Source of the DNA: Actinocatenispora rupis
GTDB lineage: Bacteria; Actinomycetota; Actinomycetes; Mycobacteriales; Micromonosporaceae
DNA: 32,042 nucleotides
Assembly (NCBI RefSeq): GCF_016861975.1
Contig: NZ_BOMB01000039.1
Coordinates: 1-32,042 of the forward strand
Direction of reading: 5' to 3'
The notes below the pieces were generated by a model, which worked only from the letters and a program-made list of their open reading frames with translations, made no database searches and had not been told where the DNA came from. A program made the position numbers and the translations under genes. Positions 3,885-10,442 of this stretch are shown here, one piece after another (positions within the stretch are counted from its first letter, which is position 1; every line of letters begins with the position of its first letter).

Positions 3885-4673
3885 TCAGCCGACGAGTACC
3901 GGCTGGCGGATCCGTTGGCTGTCAACCGATCGCAGCGCCTCGCCGTAGCTGGTGAGGGTCGCGGTCACGATCCCGGCGGTGGAGCCGAACGGCTCGGTCA
4001 CCGCCACCGCACCGCTGTCCCGCGCGCCCGCGACGATCCGGTCGTGCAACCGGCCGGGCGCCAGGAAGTACGACAGGACCGCGATGCGCCGCGCGCCGCT
4101 CGCCCGCAGTTCCGCCACGGCGGTCGGCACGTCCCGATCCCCCGCCGCGGCGTACGCGGGCAGGCAGGGTAGTCCGTGCCGTGCGCCGTACCGCCGTGCC
4201 AGGCGGGCGATGCCGCGCCGGGCGGCCACGTCCCGGGTACCGGCGGCGGCCAGTACCAGACCGTCCACAGTGGACACATTGGCGGCGGCGAGCCGGTCGT
4301 CCAGGGCGGCGGTCACGGCGTCGTCGCCACCCAGTACCCGACCGAGGCGTACGTGGAGGTCGGGGAGGTCGGCGCGGATCCCGGCGACGACCGCGGGCAC
4401 GTCGACCCGCCCGTGGTACGCCGAGGTCAGCAGCAGCGGCACCGCGACCAGCCCGCCGGTACCGCCGGTCAGGTCCCGGGCGACGGGCAGCGGCCGGCGA
4501 CCACGGTGCTCCAGGTACGCGGCGGCGACCGGCAGATCCGGCCTGGTGTCGGCGATCCGGGCGACGAGGCGCTCGATCACCGCGCCGGAGCGGGGATCCC
4601 GGCTACCGTGCGCGATCAGTAACAGCGGAACCGGTGACACGACAGGGATCCCGGCGGGTGTGGCCGGTGTCAT
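3885..4673 (-). CDS. Sirohydrochlorin ferrochelatase (CbiX/SirB family)
   Basis: A 262-aa class II chelatase that inserts iron into sirohydrochlorin to make sirohaem, the cofactor of the sulfite reductase encoded in the same operon. The metal-binding His is in LLIAHGSRDPRSG (His22), and a second His is in LLLTSAYHGRVDVP. The sequence continues as two related halves, with YFLAPGRLHDRI in the C-terminal one, as in double-length chelatases. Cobalt use for cobalamin cannot be excluded by sequence, but the operon favours iron. The ATG at 4673 overlaps the cysH stop by 4 nt (ATGA), indicating translational coupling. It is the last gene of the sulfur operon. Confidence 0.88.
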   Translation of the reverse strand: MTPATPAGIPVVSPVPLLLIAHGSRDPRSGAVIERLVARIADTRPDLPVAAAYLEHRGRRPLPVARDLTGGTGGLVAVPLLLTSAYHGRVDVPAVVAGIRADLPDLHVRLGRVLGGDDAVTAALDDRLAAANVSTVDGLVLAAAGTRDVAARRGIARLARRYGARHGLPCLPAYAAAGDRDVPTAVAELRASGARRIAVLSYFLAPGRLHDRIVAGARDSGAVAVTEPFGSTAGIVTATLTSYGEALRSVDSQRIRQPVLVG

Positions 4674-5374
4674 GCGTGGATCCCGCACTCGACCTTGTCG
4701 AACAGCGGCCAGCGGCCCGACCGCGGGTCCTCCCCCGGCGCCGTACGCCGGGTGCACGGCCAGCAGCCGACCGAGGCGTACCCCTGGCGGATGAGGTCGT
4801 TGACCGGCACGTTGTGGCGGGCGATGTAGCTGTCCACATCGGACTGGGTCCAGGCCGCGATCGGCGCGACCTTCACCATGTTGCGGTTCGCGTCGTAGTC
4901 CACCACCTTGGTACGGGCGCGGGTCGGTGACTCGTCGCGGCGCAGCCCGGTCGCCCACGCGTCGTACGGTTCGAGCGCGGACGACAGCGGCTCGACCTTG
5001 CGCAGCGCGCAGCACGAGTCCGGATCGCGCTCGAACAGCCGCGGACCGTACTCGGCGTCCTGCCGGCCGACGGTCAGCTCGGGCCGGACGGACCGGACGT
5101 TGACGGCCATGTCGCGCGCCACCCGGTCCCGTACGTCGAGGGTCTCGGTGAAGTGCAGGCCGGTGTCGAGGAACACCACGTCGACGCCGGGCACCACCCG
5201 GGACACGACGTGTACGAGGACCGCGTCGGCGAACGAGGACGTGACGCAGAACCGCGCGCCGAACGTCTCCGCCGCCCACGTCACGATCTCCGCGGCGGGC
5301 GCGCCCTCCAGCTCGTCGCCGGCGCGTACCGCGAGGTCGCGCAGTTCGGCGGGACTCCGTGTGGCTGTACTCAT
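4670..5374 (-). CDS. cysH: Adenylyl-sulfate (APS) reductase
   Basis: A 234-aa cytoplasmic enzyme that reduces adenosine 5'-phosphosulfate to sulfite with thioredoxin. The nucleotide loop is TSSFADAVLVH (about 45-55), followed by VVFLDTGLHF. The iron-sulfur ligands Cys121, Cys122, Cys204 and Cys207 (CCALRKVEPL and GCWPC) mark the bacterial APS type rather than cluster-free PAPS reductases. The catalytic Cys230 is in the C-terminal ECGIH motif. An AGGAGG precedes the ATG at 5374. The start overlaps the stop of the 50-aa zinc-ribbon gene, and the stop overlaps the chelatase start, so the operon is tightly coupled. Sulfate activation genes (cysD/cysN) are not in this window. Confidence 0.95.
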   Translation of the reverse strand: MSTATRSPAELRDLAVRAGDELEGAPAAEIVTWAAETFGARFCVTSSFADAVLVHVVSRVVPGVDVVFLDTGLHFTETLDVRDRVARDMAVNVRSVRPELTVGRQDAEYGPRLFERDPDSCCALRKVEPLSSALEPYDAWATGLRRDESPTRARTKVVDYDANRNMVKVAPIAAWTQSDVDSYIARHNVPVNDLIRQGYASVGCWPCTRRTAPGEDPRSGRWPLFDKVECGIHA

Positions 5375-5542: not shown

Positions 5543-7207
5543 TCATCGCAGGTCCTCCTCGGGCGCGCGCACCACCCACTGGGCGAACCGCTCGTCCGGC
5601 TTGCGGTCGGCCAGGTAGCGCCGGGCCAGCCGCTCCACGTAGTCGGGCAGGTCGGCGGCGGTCACCTTGAGACCACGCAGTTTCCGGCCGAAGCCGGCGT
5701 CCAGCCCGAGCCCGCCGCCCAGGTGTACCTGGAACCCGGGCACCTGGCGGCCGTCGGCGTCGAGGACGAGCTGGCCCTTGAGACCGATGTCGGCGACCTG
5801 CGTACGGGCGCACGCGTTCGGGCATCCGTTGACGTGCACGGTGATCGGGGTGTCCAGCTCCGGTACCCGGCGTTCCAGTTCCGTGACGAGGTCGGCGGTC
5901 AGCGCCTTCGTCTCGACGATCGCGAGCTTGCAGTACTCGATGCCGGTGCAGGCGAGGGCGCTGCGCTTCCAGTACGACGGCTCGGCGGACAGGCCCAGCC
6001 CGGCCAGGTCGGCGACCAGACCGTCCACTTCGGACTCGTCGACGTCGAGTACCAGCAGCTTCTGGTACGGGGTGGTGCGGACGCGGCCGGAGCCGTGCGC
6101 CTCCACCACGTCGGCGATCCGGCCGAGCAGCGCGCCGGAGACGCGGCCGACGACGGGACTGACGCCCACGTAGTACCGGCCGTCGCGTTGGCGGTGCACG
6201 CCGATGTGGTCGATCGGGGTGGTGCGCTCCGGCGCCGGCCCGTCGGCGAGCGGCCGCTTCAGGTACTCGGTCTCCAGTACCTCCCGGAACTTCTCGACAC
6301 CCCAGTCGGCGACGAGGAACTTCAACCGGGCCCGGGTACGCAGCCGGCGGTAGCCGTAGTCGCGGAAGATGCTGGTCACGCCCCACCACACCGCGGCGAT
6401 CCCGTCCAGCGGCACCCACACGCCGAGTCGCTTGGCCAGCATGGGATTCGTGGACAGGCCGCCACCGACCCACACGTCGAAACCGGGCCCGTACTCGGGA
6501 TGCTCGACGCCGAGGAACGCCACGTCGTTCGCCTCGTACGGGGTGTCGAGCAGCCACGAGATCGTCGTCTTGAACTTGCGCGGCAGGTTCGCGAACGCCG
6601 GATCACCGATGTACTTCTCGGAGATCTCCCGGATCGCGGGCGTCGCGTCGACCACCTCGTCCGCGGCGATGCCCGCCACCGGGCTGCCCAGGATCACCCG
6701 CGGCACGTCGCCGCACGCCTCCGTGGTGGACAGCCCCACGGCCTCCAACCGCCGCCAGATCTCCGGTACGTCCTCGATCCGGACCCAGTGCAGCTGCACG
6801 TTCTGCCGGTCGGTCAGGTCCGCGGTGTCCCGCGCGAACTCCGACGACACGTCCGCGATCGTGCGCAGCTGAGCCAGATCCAGCTGCCCCGAGTCGACCC
6901 GCACCCGGAGCATGAAGTACTTGTCCTCCAGCTCCTCCGGCTCCAGCACCGCCGTACGGCCGCCGTCGATGCCGGGCCGGCGCTGCGTGTACAGGCCCCA
7001 CCAGCGGAACCGGCCGCGCTTGTCGGCCGGGTCGATCGAGTCGAAGCCGCGGTGCGCGTAGATGTTCTCGATCCGGGCGCGGACGTTCAGCCCGATGTCG
7101 TCCTTCTTCTGCTGTTCGTTGGCGTTGAGCGGTTCGCGGTGGCCCATCGCCCACTGGCCCTGCCCCTTGGGCTGGCGCGGACGGGACGGAACGGTACTGA
7201 CCGCCAT
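5543..7207 (-). CDS. sir: Ferredoxin-dependent sulfite reductase
   Basis: A 554-aa assimilatory enzyme that reduces sulfite to sulfide with six electrons from ferredoxin. It shows the duplicated nitrite/sulfite reductase ferredoxin-like half domains. The four cluster/sirohaem Cys ligands are in CTGIEYC (Cys420, Cys426) and NGCPNAC (Cys462, Cys466). The motif RQNVQLHWVRIEDVP and the N-terminal RGRFRWWGLYTQR are typical of actinobacterial SirA/NirA proteins. Sulfite rather than nitrite is inferred from the neighbours: APS reductase and sirohaem chelatase. The ATG at 7207 follows AAAGGA. A Cys-containing leader peptide and competing hairpins precede it, pointing to attenuation. Confidence 0.94.
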   Translation of the reverse strand: MAVSTVPSRPRQPKGQGQWAMGHREPLNANEQQKKDDIGLNVRARIENIYAHRGFDSIDPADKRGRFRWWGLYTQRRPGIDGGRTAVLEPEELEDKYFMLRVRVDSGQLDLAQLRTIADVSSEFARDTADLTDRQNVQLHWVRIEDVPEIWRRLEAVGLSTTEACGDVPRVILGSPVAGIAADEVVDATPAIREISEKYIGDPAFANLPRKFKTTISWLLDTPYEANDVAFLGVEHPEYGPGFDVWVGGGLSTNPMLAKRLGVWVPLDGIAAVWWGVTSIFRDYGYRRLRTRARLKFLVADWGVEKFREVLETEYLKRPLADGPAPERTTPIDHIGVHRQRDGRYYVGVSPVVGRVSGALLGRIADVVEAHGSGRVRTTPYQKLLVLDVDESEVDGLVADLAGLGLSAEPSYWKRSALACTGIEYCKLAIVETKALTADLVTELERRVPELDTPITVHVNGCPNACARTQVADIGLKGQLVLDADGRQVPGFQVHLGGGLGLDAGFGRKLRGLKVTAADLPDYVERLARRYLADRKPDERFAQWVVRAPEEDLR

Positions 7208-7213
7208 GGCGGA

Positions 7214-7317
7214 TCCTTTCCGGCGGGTACGGCAGAGCGGGTACGCGCCGGCGGTCACGGATCCTCGACGGAGTCCGGAACGGCGGTGTTCACGGCGGAG
7301 AGATCGGCGCCGGCGCG
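7214..7317 (-). promoter_or_regulatory. Alternative RNA hairpins between leader peptide and sir (attenuator candidate)
   Basis: Reading the minus strand, three segments can pair in two exclusive ways. Segment A (7308-7317) and segment B (7244-7253) form a perfect 10-bp helix, CGCGCCGGCG with CGCCGGCGCG. Segment B, extended to 7241-7251, can instead pair with segment C (7220-7230) in an 11-position helix with one C/C mismatch and a 10-nt loop. Segment C directly adjoins the AAAGGA ribosome binding site of sir at 7214-7219. The B:C hairpin would therefore abut the site and A:B would free it. This is the geometry of a translation-controlled attenuator; which state is on is not shown by sequence. 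Confidence 0.55.
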
Positions 7318-7349
7318 ACGGGCAGAAACCGAAGAAAGCGGTACTGCGG

Positions 7350-7439
7350 TCAGGCGGCCGGGCAACAGATGGCGCTGTGCACGCGGCAGTGGTCGACGTG
7401 ACGTCGCACCACCAACCTGCGCTGCACAGCCGCACTCAT
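7350..7439 (-). CDS. 29-aa cysteine-type leader peptide of the sulfur operon
   Basis: A short reading frame, starting MSAAVQRRL and containing VRRHVDHCRVHSAICCPAA, ends 142 nt before sir. It matches the family of actinomycete putative leader peptides with the pattern R-x-HVD-x-CR-x-x-SA-x-C found before sulfur genes (known from memory). It has GGGAGG 10 nt before the ATG at 7439. Three Cys codons lie near the end (codons 18, 25 and 26), so ribosome progress there would sense charged cysteinyl-tRNA. Cysteine-responsive short-ORF attenuation has been described in mycobacteria. The peptide itself probably has no function after translation. Confidence 0.82.
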   Translation of the reverse strand: MSAAVQRRLVVRRHVDHCRVHSAICCPAA

Positions 7440-7465
7440 GGGCGTCAGCCTCCCACGCCTACCGA

Positions 7466-7481
7466 CCCCGCACCAGCGGGG
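7466..7481 (-). promoter_or_regulatory. Small hairpin in the leader region upstream of the leader peptide
   Basis: CCCCGC-ACCA-GCGGGG forms a 6-bp perfect stem with a 4-nt loop about 27 nt before the leader-peptide ATG. It may be part of the 5' leader or an operator for the sulfur operon. No clear -10/-35 pair could be chosen here. Confidence 0.3.
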
Positions 7482-7513
7482 AGTGAAATCCGTCTCTCTG
7501 TCACGGAACGATT

Positions 7514-7541
7514 CGCCGGAGTCAGAGCGGCGGCTCCGGCG
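7514..7541 (-). terminator. Candidate terminator of the LuxR-family gene
   Basis: An 8-bp GC-rich stem (CGCCGGAG with CTCCGGCG) with a 12-nt loop begins 4 nt after the stop of the LuxR gene. The following bases are only mildly U-rich. It separates this gene from the sulfur operon downstream on the same strand. Confidence 0.45.
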
Positions 7542-7545
7542 GGCG

Positions 7546-10248
7546 TCACGAACCCTCCGCCAGCCGGTCGGCGATCGCCGTACGGGACGGGACGGACAGC
7601 TTGCGCAGGATGTTCCCGACGTGCACGGCCGCCGTCTTCGGGGAGATGTGCAGCCGCCTGGCCAGCTCCGCGTTCGTCAGCCCGTCCGCGATCAGCCGCG
7701 CCACCTCGCGCTCCCGCGGCGTCAGCGCCGCCGGCCCCGCCGCCGTACGCTCCTCGCCGGCCAGGCCCAGCTCCTCGCGTACCTCGGTGAGCTGCGCGAC
7801 CCGCCAGCCACCCCAGTCGGCCAGCCGCGTCGACGCCTCCCGCACGTACGCCGCGGCGTCCTCGGCCCGGCCCAGCGCCAGCGCACACCGCGCCGCCCCG
7901 ACGTACGCGGTGCCCACGACGGACGGCGGCATCAGCGCCGAACCGGTCGCCGCCAGGTAACCCGGCAGGGCGTCGGCGTGCCGCCGGTTCACCTCCGCGA
8001 TCTGCGCGTCGACCAGGTTGCGGTGCTCGTCCCACACGTTCGGGTCGAGCAGCTCGGCGTGCATCCGGTCCAGGTCTGCCAGGTCCAGCCCGCAGGCCAG
8101 CGCGGCGGAGATCAGGTCGTGCGCCTGCGCGCCGCTGCGCCACATCTGGTGCGACAGCGCCGCGTACAGCTCGGTCAGCCGGGCCAGCGCCACGTCCCGG
8201 TCGCCGCGCCGACAGGCCAGATGGAACGCCAGCCCCGGTACGGCGGTGGCGATGGCCTGCGGCTGCGCGACCAGCTCGTCCAGTACGGCGGCGGCGTCGT
8301 CCAGCCGCTCGGCCTCCAGGTACAGGCCGGCGAGGAACTGGCCGTGGTAGTCGGCCCGCCGCCCGCGCCGCCGGTACCCGCGGTCGATGCGGCGGCCCTC
8401 CTCCAGCGCCTCGACGGCCCGGTGCAGCTCCCCCTGCCGTACGGCGAGGCGAGCCAGGCCCGAGTAGTACGCGGCGACGGCGAGGCGCTCGAAGCCGGCG
8501 CGTTCCGCGTCGATGCGCATCCGTTCCAGCATCTGCGCGTGGTCCTGCGGGGTGGTCGGCGGCAGGTCCTGGACCAGGAAGTTCAGCGCGCGGGCGGCGA
8601 GCACCCACTCGCCCAGCTTCTCGGCCTCGTCGACCAGGTCGCCGAGGATCGTCCAGCCCTCAGCCGCGGTGGCGGGCCGGTCGGTCAGCGCCGCGCCCTT
8701 CTCCACCAGCGCGGCCAGCCGGATCTCCGGCAGCTCGTACTCCTCGGCCAGCGCCAGCGCCCGGTCCGCCCACGCGATCGTGGCGTCCACGTCGTCGCGC
8801 AGCCCGGTCGACTGCGCCACGGCGGTCATCGCGCGGGCCGCCTCGGCGCCCGGCGGCAGCTCCGCGATCAGCTCCTCCACCTGGCGCGTCGCCGTACGCA
8901 TCTCGTCGATCTCGTCGGCCTCCCACGCCACCCGGATCAGCAGGTACAGCGCGTCGGCCTGGGCGGTGGCGGTGGTCGCGGCCTCGCGCCAGCCGCGCGC
9001 GTACCGGATGCCGTCGTCGAGGAGGCCGGCGAGCCAGGCGGCGCGCGCGGCGGACGACAGCAGGTCGACGTCCTCGGGCATCTCGTCCAGGCCCATCTCG
9101 GCCAGCTGCAACGCCTGGTACGCGGAGCCGATCGACAGGTACAGCGCGGCGCCGCGGCGGGCGGCGTGGACCATGTCGTCGTACCGCATGGCGGCGTGCG
9201 CGTGGTGCGCCACCAGCGCCGGGTCGGCGTCCTCGCCGGCGAGGAGTACTTCCAGGGCGGACTCGTGCAGGCGGCGGCGCTGCCGGGCCAGCATCGCGCC
9301 GGTGATCGACTCGCGCACCAGCGCGTGCCGGAAGCTGAACTCGTCCTCGCCGGACTCGACGAGTACGCCGGTCTCGACCAGCTCGCGGAGCGCGGCGATC
9401 AGGTCGTCCTCGCCGGTGCCGGTGACGGCGGCGAGCAGGTCGAACGGGACGCGGTAGCCGAGCACGGCGGCGGCCTCGACGATGCGTCGCAGCTCGGGGG
9501 CGAGTCCCTCGGTCTGCCGGCGGAGCGCCTCGGCGAGGCTCCACGGCAGCGGCGCGTCGACCAGCTCGTCGACCCCGCCGGTACTGCCGCGCAGCAGTTC
9601 CTCCAGGAAGAACGGGTTCCCACCGGTACGGTGGTGCAGCGCCGCGACCGTCCGGTACGGCACGGTCTGTCCGGTCGCCGCGGACACGAACGCCGCGGTG
9701 TCCGCCTCGGTCAGCCGGTCCAGCCGGACGTGCGTGAGGGTGTGCCGGCGCTCCATCCGCGCCAGCAGCGCGCCGACCGGCTGCCGCCCCGACACCTCGT
9801 CCGGCCGGTACGTGGCGAGGAGAAGTCGCGGGCCGCCCTGCTCGGCGAGCCGTTCGAACAGTGCGGCGCTCTCCGAGTCGGCCCAGTGCAGGTCCTCGAA
9901 GACGATCACCGCCGGGCCGTCGCCGACCTGCGCCGACAACAGCGAGAGCCCGGTGTGCAGGCGCTCCACCGGGCTACGACGCGCATCGGTCAACTCGTCC
10001 AGCGCCGCCTCGGACACCCCCGGGCGACCGTCGATCGCGTCCAGCAGCACCTCGTACGGCCGGGACAGCGAGCCGGGCTCGGCGTGCCCGACCAGCACCG
10101 TCGTACCGGCGGGAAGGCCGGCGAGCAGCTCGGCGACCAGTCGGGTCTTGCCGATGCCGGGCTCGCCGGCGATCACGGCCACCTCGGGCCGGTGCGCGGC
10201 GGCGAGTCGCGCCAACCGGCGCAGCTCGTCGTCGCGGCCGACCATCAT
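7546..10248 (-). CDS. Large ATP-binding LuxR-family transcriptional regulator (LAL type)
   Basis: A 900-aa cytoplasmic regulator. An N-terminal AAA/STAND ATPase domain has Walker A GEPGIGKT (about residues 28-35) and Walker [13 protein letters not shown] (about 113-124). The middle is a long helical repeat region of TPR style. The C-terminus is a LuxR/GerE helix-turn-helix, [20 protein letters not shown] through [18 protein letters not shown]. The family switches promoters on after ATP and ligand binding; ligand and targets are unknown here. The ATG at 10248 is chosen because it overlaps the TGA of the upstream 65-aa gene (ATGA). A GTG at 10275 is an alternative. Confidence 0.9.
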
Positions 10249-10442
10249 CGGGCCGGCACCGTCCCTCCCACGCACGGCTCAAGACTAGCGGCGGTACGAC
10301 CGGCGCTCCGGCTCGCGTGGTGCCGGTGCGAGCGGCGTACCTTGCGTGCGGCGGCCAGCAGGCGGGACCGCTCGGCGGCGGCCAGGTGCTCGGCCTGGTA
10401 GGCGTGCAGGTTGTCGAGCATCAGTTCGGGGTTCGTGAACAT
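10245..10442 (-). CDS. 65-aa protein coupled to the LuxR regulator, unknown function
   Basis: A small protein, [20 protein letters not shown] then a basic helix ([22 protein letters not shown]) and a short tail. GGAGG stands before the ATG at 10442, and the stop overlaps the ATG of the LuxR gene by 4 nt. A good ribosome site plus translational coupling argue that it is a real gene. From memory, similar tiny proteins beginning MFT-P-E and ending in Arg/His-rich stretches occur in other actinobacteria and are called hypothetical. It has no enzyme motif. It could bind the ATPase partner or nucleic acid; neither is shown. Confidence 0.65.

Follow-up and report, generated by a model that had tools for sequence, protein, structure and literature searches.

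How the sulfite reductase gene (sir) of Actinocatenispora rupis could be tuned to the supply of cysteine is the question raised by a short, cysteine-bearing reading frame immediately upstream of it. We analysed this locus within a stretch of 32,042 nt (the window), and compared it with sir loci from across the class. On the minus strand, the leader is followed by sir, then a cysH-like gene, and then a CbiX-like gene:

7439..7350, minus strand: leader peptide ORF, an ATG frame of 29 codons, MSAAVQRRLVVRRHVDHCRVHSAICCPAA, followed by its stop
7365..7406, minus strand: conserved peptide motif R-x-H-V-D-x-x-R-x5-C, codons 12-25, at fixed spacing
7365..7367, minus strand: putative sensor Cys codon 25, TGT
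5543..7207, minus strand: sir, 554 aa, ferredoxin-type sulfite/nitrite reductase family (Pfam NIR_SIR and NIR_SIR_ferr)
4670..5374, minus strand: cysH-like PAPS/APS reductase (Pfam PAPS_reduct, E 7.8e-48)
3885..4673, minus strand: CbiX-family sirohydrochlorin chelatase-like gene (Pfam CbiX, E 2.1e-27)

The frame of 29 codons with VRRHVDHCR, SAICC and three Cys codons, as described in the first-pass annotation, was found at 7439..7350 on the minus strand. Its Cys codons are TGC-18, TGT-25 and TGC-26, with contiguous Cys (CC) at codons 25-26 only, and its stop lies 142 nt from the sir ATG (7207). The sir genes of three other Actinocatenispora genomes match that of the window at 87-88%, and the nearest named relative is that of Actinocatenispora comari (87%). 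A gene for a large AAA/LuxR-type regulator lies upstream of the leader on the same strand (7546-10275, minus).

The leader frame in front of sir is real and is a member of a known family. The earlier statement that such leaders are known before actinomycete sulfur genes was correct, as NCBIfam includes NF042934 ("putative leader peptide", cis_reg_atten), Ms4527A (NF042936) and Ms5788A (NF042933). The window peptide scores 18.3 bits against NF042934, under its 27-bit cut-off, and misses the 45-bit cut-off of both NF042936 (11.2 bits) and NF042933 (17.5 bits). Among six relatives' peptides, the Streptomyces sir leader is the only one to pass, with 32.9 bits against NF042934 (cut-off 27); it scores 28.2 bits against NF042936, under the 45-bit cut-off. 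By our own definition of an actinobacterial Cys leader (R-x-H-x-D-x2-R-x5-C at fixed spacing, a stop at no more than 12 codons, a position upstream of a sulfur gene and a conserved Cys encoded by UGU), the window leader is one of these.

The motif is widespread. R12, H14, D16, R19 and C25 are invariant in an alignment of 18 leaders that includes two paralogues from the same genome. A motif-bearing leader precedes sir in all 80 of the nearest loci (drawn from titled genome records); 79 were recognized by a first pattern and all 80 by a later one, and the locus missed at first (L041) has the leader RRHLDFGRMRSMLC, with TGT as the conserved Cys codon. In a class-wide sample, sir was identified in 152 of 197 genomes, and 129 of the 151 from other genomes were examined (29 as loci and 100 as upstream regions), with contig-end matches and the tail of the list left out. 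The strict motif was found in 99 of these 129 regions, and 111 have a relaxed form that permits [RH] at the last Arg position and a spacing of 4-6, and that requires the Cys and leaves its codon free. Together, the 80 nearest loci, the 129 class-wide regions, the window and three congeners comprise 213 sir regions. The relaxed pattern detects R-x-H-x-D-x2-[RH]-x5-C before sir in 195 of them, 193 of these at standard spacing, and does not find it in 18. One of those 18 (L175) has RRHVDLAR, with Cys at other positions (codons TGC and TGT). The standard-spaced class-wide leaders come from 19 family handles. Two loci (L009 and L007) have an identical leader; hence, counts of distinct sequences are given alongside.

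Placement of the motif follows the direction of sir. The strict motif occurs on the sense strand upstream of sir in 156 of 180 regions and on neither strand in the sir and downstream stretches of 80 loci. Antisense matches occur in five of the 180 upstream regions; four look like real leaders (TGT) and one looks like chance (TGC). At L215, L235, L236 and L237 a TGT motif leader lies upstream of sir on the opposite strand and points away from it. L215 has leaders on both strands, and a sense-strand leader was not found at the other three (family f16). In these three, control may thus be exerted on the divergent gene.

The codons of the invariant residues vary synonymously (Arg as CGA, CGG, CGC or CGT, His as CAC or CAT, Asp as GAC or GAT). 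Thus, selection acts at the level of the peptide. Distinct ATG-start peptides carry one Cys in 68 of 115 cases and two in 33 (one or two in 101 of 115). Cys runs such as RVCSCCCLP occur together with the motif in family f4, which is of the same order and apparently represents mycobacteria or their kin. Family f32 has poly-Cys frames before sir at both of its loci (MCCCMCCSA and CCMCCCS at L168 and L213), with no R-x-H-x-D motif. We think that the peptide matters because a single UGU seems to suffice where the motif is present and a run occurs where it is absent, a pattern drawn from few families. The RxHxD residues would lie approximately 9-13 residues from the Cys position, in a part of the exit tunnel that known arrest peptides contact.

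The conserved Cys is encoded by TGT in all 193 standard-spaced sir leaders (131/131 distinct sequences). TGT accounts for approximately 17 of 598 Cys codons (2.8%) within sir itself, as counted in 110 genes (the 80 nearest, the 29 class-wide loci and the window, leaving aside the 100 fetched upstream regions). Neighbouring invariant residues are only occasionally T-ending across the 131 distinct motifs (GAT for 20% of Asp, CAT for 12% of His). Third-position T makes up 13% of C/T over motif codons 1-13, and the other Cys codons between motif and stop are mixed (43 TGC vs 31 TGT); therefore, relaxed composition does not explain the fixed T. The codon after the conserved Cys varies, so TGT is not simply a piece of a longer fixed word. 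For the Ser three codons before the Cys, AGC makes up 92% of Ser codons, compared with 20%. This enrichment may reflect inertia, given that an exchange between AGC and TCN takes two changes. For the first Arg of the motif (7406-7404 in the window), CGA is used in the window and by 30% of distinct leaders, compared with 1.3% of Arg codons in sir; it may be a second rare codon of importance.

We identified two tRNA-Cys genes, both with anticodon GCA, in 30 tRNA loci out of 65 tRNA matches in the genome (plus some others within these loci). Thus, UGU would probably be wobble-read, which is, in general, slower. The second tRNA-Cys (GCA) is part of an array of at least 15 tRNA genes (G000:C48, approximately 39,000-41,000; L266, L269, L279, L280) that looks like the array of a mobile element.

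Leaders of this type are also found before other genes. The genome of A. rupis encodes three further motif leaders, all three with TGT at the conserved Cys:

G000:C4:257057-257128: own-genome paralogous leader (L243), TGT
G000:C47:10981-11034: own-genome paralogous leader (L245), TGT
G000:C44:67176-67247: own-genome paralogous leader (L244), TGT

The genes that follow encode two similar proteins of the FMN-reductase family and one winged-helix (Trans_reg_C) protein. From other genomes, 40 leader regions were fetched; six had no motif match, five had non-standard spacing and one (L323) was a sir leader already counted. TGT is present in 28 of the remaining 28. Judged by the look of their sequences, the genes after these leaders probably include cysteine-synthase-like and cysH-like genes, sulfonate-type transport genes and symporter genes. 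The search for further leaders relied on a profile built from the 18 leaders, because searches with NF042936 and NF042934 were noisy (matching 5 and 10 of 14 control genomes, respectively). Matches at E <=0.001 were obtained in 48 of 60 class genomes, with up to 12 per genome.

How the leader itself is expressed can be approached through the DNA upstream of it, where two promoter-like elements were identified:

7470..7475, minus strand: -35-like TGGTGC, at -36..-31 from the leader ATG, weak consensus
7447..7452, minus strand: -10-like GAGGCT, 7 nt upstream of the leader ATG

Among 164 distinct leader upstreams, the frequencies are 0.74 for T-36, 0.60 for G-35 and 0.70 for G-34, and xAxxxT occurs 6 or 7 nt before the ATG in 146 (over 200 rounds of shuffling, the mean was 10.6 and the maximum 19). 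Leaders with no ATG in the range used (17 of 195) were left out. The leader had been credited with its own ribosome site, but the GGAGG in question (7453-7449) overlaps the conserved -10-like GAGGCT (7452-7447), and only 18 of the 164 leader upstreams have a Shine-Dalgarno-like tetramer, compared with 81 of 83 for sir (the sir starts were chosen in part by this feature). GGAGG is therefore not confirmed as a ribosome site. The conserved elements suggest a leaderless transcript that would start at or near 7439. A strict scan for a sigma-70 promoter found none upstream of the leader, and thus the leaderless reading rests on the conserved spacing.

Between the leader and sir, RNA segments that could pair in alternative ways were considered:

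7351..7363, minus strand: segment Z, end of the leader ORF and its stop, predicted partner of A in the ribosome-free fold
7308..7317, minus strand: segment A, CGCGCCGGCG, 10-bp complement of B
7244..7253, minus strand: segment B, CGCCGGCGCG, partner of A in the stalled-ribosome model or of C in the free RNA
7220..7227, minus strand: segment C, overlaps the sir Shine-Dalgarno, partner of B
7214..7221, minus strand: sir Shine-Dalgarno, GGAAAGGA, 7-14 nt before the sir ATG

Both pairings drawn in the first-pass annotation are present in the sequence. A (7317-7308) is perfectly complementary to B (7253-7244) over 10 bp, and B can pair with C, which overlaps the sir ribosome site. When the 142-nt gap was shuffled with its dinucleotides preserved, 22 of 1000 rounds gave a complementarity of at least 10 bp, making it an event of approximately 2%. 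In the predicted fold of the free RNA, most B:C pairs have a probability of approximately 0.85. The A:B form, proposed as one state of this RNA, has a predicted probability of only 0.02 there, since A is taken up by the last part of the frame (7363-7351), a partner that had been overlooked (A:Z probabilities 0.21-0.95, and at least 0.8 at 7 of 10 positions). When UGU-25 occupies the A site, the ribosome would cover segment Z, and the predicted probability of A:B rises from 0.02 to 0.80. The idea that ribosome position selects between A:B and B:C thus survives in the predicted fold, but the release of the sir ribosome site that should follow is small (modelled accessibility 0.39 to 0.48), and accessibility drops to 0.27 with the ribosome at the stop codon. 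For the best duplex between the gap and the sir ribosome site in the window, 3 of 100 shuffles did as well or better (p 0.03). No intrinsic terminator was identified in 7150-7560, so the arrangement lacks what defines a classical terminator/antiterminator. There were no Rfam matches at the gathering score in the window, and the local search gave one irrelevant weak match. A long hairpin inside the leader ORF was set aside, as it is no more stable than synonymous recodings that preserve the peptide. According to the model, the toggle would make a sensible switch and is correct as drawn for this one sequence; it is not conserved and is unproven.

Relatives were compared at the same positions. 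The gap between leader and sir is 142 nt in the window vs 198-225 nt of different sequence in the three congeners, in which A:B is absent and the longest perfect inverted repeat is 7 bp, the level expected by chance. Helices at corresponding places are well paired, with no two-sided change in any of three sets: the post-stop hairpin CGCCCG/CGGGCG (92.4% of cells paired) and the alternative helix GGGCGC/CGCGCC (78.4%), both of conserved sequence, in 25 chosen Micromonosporaceae rows, and the ribosome-site helix CCGTTGTC/GACAACGG (96.1%) in 16 Micromonospora rows. Covariation of A:B and B:C, proposed earlier as a check, was therefore negative in these relatives, and A:B/B:C is discarded as a conserved structure.

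Nor does release of the ribosome site, taken as a general output, exceed what shuffles give. The mean accessibility gain over 82 loci is 0.049, which falls between the extremes obtained with shuffled gaps (-0.002 and 0.054). By group, the observed vs shuffled gain is 0.110 vs 0.052 in Micromonospora (16 loci), 0.112 vs 0.066 in Kribbella (6) and 0.003 vs 0.018 in the group of the window (5). The numbers of loci with anti-Shine-Dalgarno pairing at p<=0.05 are 0 of 32 for Streptomyces, 10 of 37 for Micromonosporaceae (Actinocatenispora included) and 2 of 11 for others. Compared with shuffles, sequestration of the Streptomyces ribosome site is, if anything, weaker (mean z +0.74). In Streptomyces (L049-L088), the gap from leader to sir contains sequence blocks, around GCGCAA...GCGC and GCGCAGGTCAGAGCC, that are conserved.

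From this sequence-based evidence, we consider it probable that a ribosome stall at one wobble-read UGU, most likely aided by the peptide, raises sir under cysteine shortage. When cysteine is short, the ribosome would stall at UGU-25, the nascent peptide with its R-x-H-x-D motif probably helping, and the stall would increase expression of sir, either through release of the sir ribosome site or through Rho. On the input side, codon and peptide are conserved; the output may vary between lineages. A broader version might also hold, although we place it somewhat short of an even chance. In that version, a single fixed wobble-read UGU at constant distance behind R-x-H-[VI]-D-x2-R would be an ancestral, Actinomycetes-wide sensor that governs sulfur genes, arrest would need both a slow or uncharged UGU and the peptide in the tunnel, the sensor would underlie a cysteine regulon (in line with up to 12 profile matches per genome), and poly-Cys runs (with the motif in f4, without it in f32) would be derived.

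Four explanations compete with a peptide-aided stall. It is very improbable that the frame arose by chance or encodes a small functional protein with no role in attenuation. Small ORFs in a single genome are often chance, but this motif is kept before sir in every one of the 80 nearest loci and in 111 of the 129 class-wide regions, the Cys near the C-terminus is always UGU at standard spacing, and paralogues precede other genes, of which some look like sulfur genes. A classical attenuator, in which the number and charging of Cys codons decide and the peptide sequence is passive, would account for the Cys runs of f4 (RVCSCCCLP) and the motif-free poly-Cys frames at both f32 loci, and contiguous Cys codons are described for M. 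smegmatis in PMC9031893. Such codon counting seems unlikely here, as most distinct peptides (68 of 115) have one Cys, and R, H, D and R are kept at fixed distance across families and paralogues despite synonymous codon variation.

The remaining two rivals concern the output. In a Rho-dependent, tnaC-like arrangement, a ribosome near the stop would mask a C-rich rut site, and without a stall Rho would end transcription before sir, making a helix switch unnecessary. In 80 loci, the excess of C over G is larger in the gap than in the DNA upstream of the leader (0.151 vs 0.009), although C-richness is unspecific for Rho and the comparison is with upstream DNA rather than with ordinary 5' UTRs. The C-rich gap and the lack of an intrinsic terminator in the region searched make Rho output a serious rival. 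The less sequestered Streptomyces ribosome sites are also in its favour, as are the three codons that separate UGU from the stop in 125 of 193 leaders. Seliverstov et al. (2005; PMC1262725) put Rho forward for mycobacterial cys leaders, in terms of a weak prediction; in PMC13236596, however, attenuation in M. smegmatis is described as acting on translation. On balance, we regard the Rho reading as possible but rather doubtful. Sequestration of the ribosome site as first drawn, with A:B against B:C as a conserved structure, draws on the 10-bp A:B pairing (22/1000 shuffles), the toggling in the model and the site duplex (p 0.03). We find it quite unlikely, given that A:B is absent in congeners, the helices of relatives lack two-sided changes and there is no aggregate accessibility gain over shuffles.

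If the peptide-aided stall at UGU is true, cysteine sensing in Streptomyces, Micromonospora and many other actinomycetes relies on one codon and a conserved peptide, not on a codon run. A one-base synonymous change, UGU to UGC, would then make it possible to address the old problem of how slow one codon has to be and whether the nascent chain contributes. Motif plus UGU would also offer a simple rule by which candidates for the cysteine regulon of antibiotic producers could be listed from their sequences.

Parts of this picture have precedents, and novelty was overstated in the first-pass annotation. The family is already in NCBIfam, and the legend to Fig 7 of Shell et al. (2015; PMC4633059) places a uORF before mycobacterial nirA/Msmeg_4527, a leaderless, Cys-rich short ORF. 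Cysteine-dependent attenuation in M. smegmatis is reported in PMC9031893 (contiguous Cys codons, cysteine-dependent ribosome speed) and PMC13236596. Eight leaders are given in a leader-peptide survey of S. lividans, with no cysteine leader among them (PMC8079986). The Rhodobacterales cysS leader uORFC-8-2, for which attenuation is proposed (PMC8632094), resembles ours as a uORF that contains Cys codons and precedes a Cys gene; it differs in that its Cys codons are tandem and mostly UGC, and in having two prominent stems and a U run, which are read as an intrinsic terminator. Because those codons are mostly UGC, Cys leaders do not in general have a fixed UGU. We found no mention of a fixed UGU in Cys leaders among the literature matches listed, and none of RRHVD in the context of leader peptides in the literature searched, where these letters occur in two papers that, by title and opening of the abstract, do not deal with leaders; subscription papers lay outside both searches. 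Thus, there are two class-wide features for which we could not find a description in the searched literature, the single invariant UGU and the fixed nascent-chain motif. These two strongest features of the leader show only in comparison with relatives and were missed in the first-pass annotation.

Compared with known systems, the window leader shares its motif region with NF042934, but falls under the cut-off of that model. Ms4527A, presumably the nirA leader given the shared locus number, and the M. smegmatis attenuators have the same kind of downstream gene and a short Cys-bearing ORF, with a leaderless start also suggested here; the Cys run is longer there, and here there are one or two Cys in 101 of 115 distinct peptides and three in the window. 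Canestrari and colleagues reportedly described in 2020 that stalled ribosomes at cysteine-responsive attenuators of M. smegmatis relieve sequestration of the downstream ribosome site; the earlier remark that the paired alternative structure had not been seen described would therefore not hold. The tnaC leader of E. coli tryptophanase senses free tryptophan at its stop and has a Rho-dependent output. The leader proposed here would resemble tnaC in a nascent-peptide-aided stall near the stop and, possibly, in Rho-dependent output, but would sense a codon pause on Cys rather than a free amino acid. The leu leader of Salmonella likewise uses a rare synonymous codon as the sensor; it has a run of several rare Leu codons and an intrinsic terminator, whereas the actinomycete leader would act through one UGU and no terminator.
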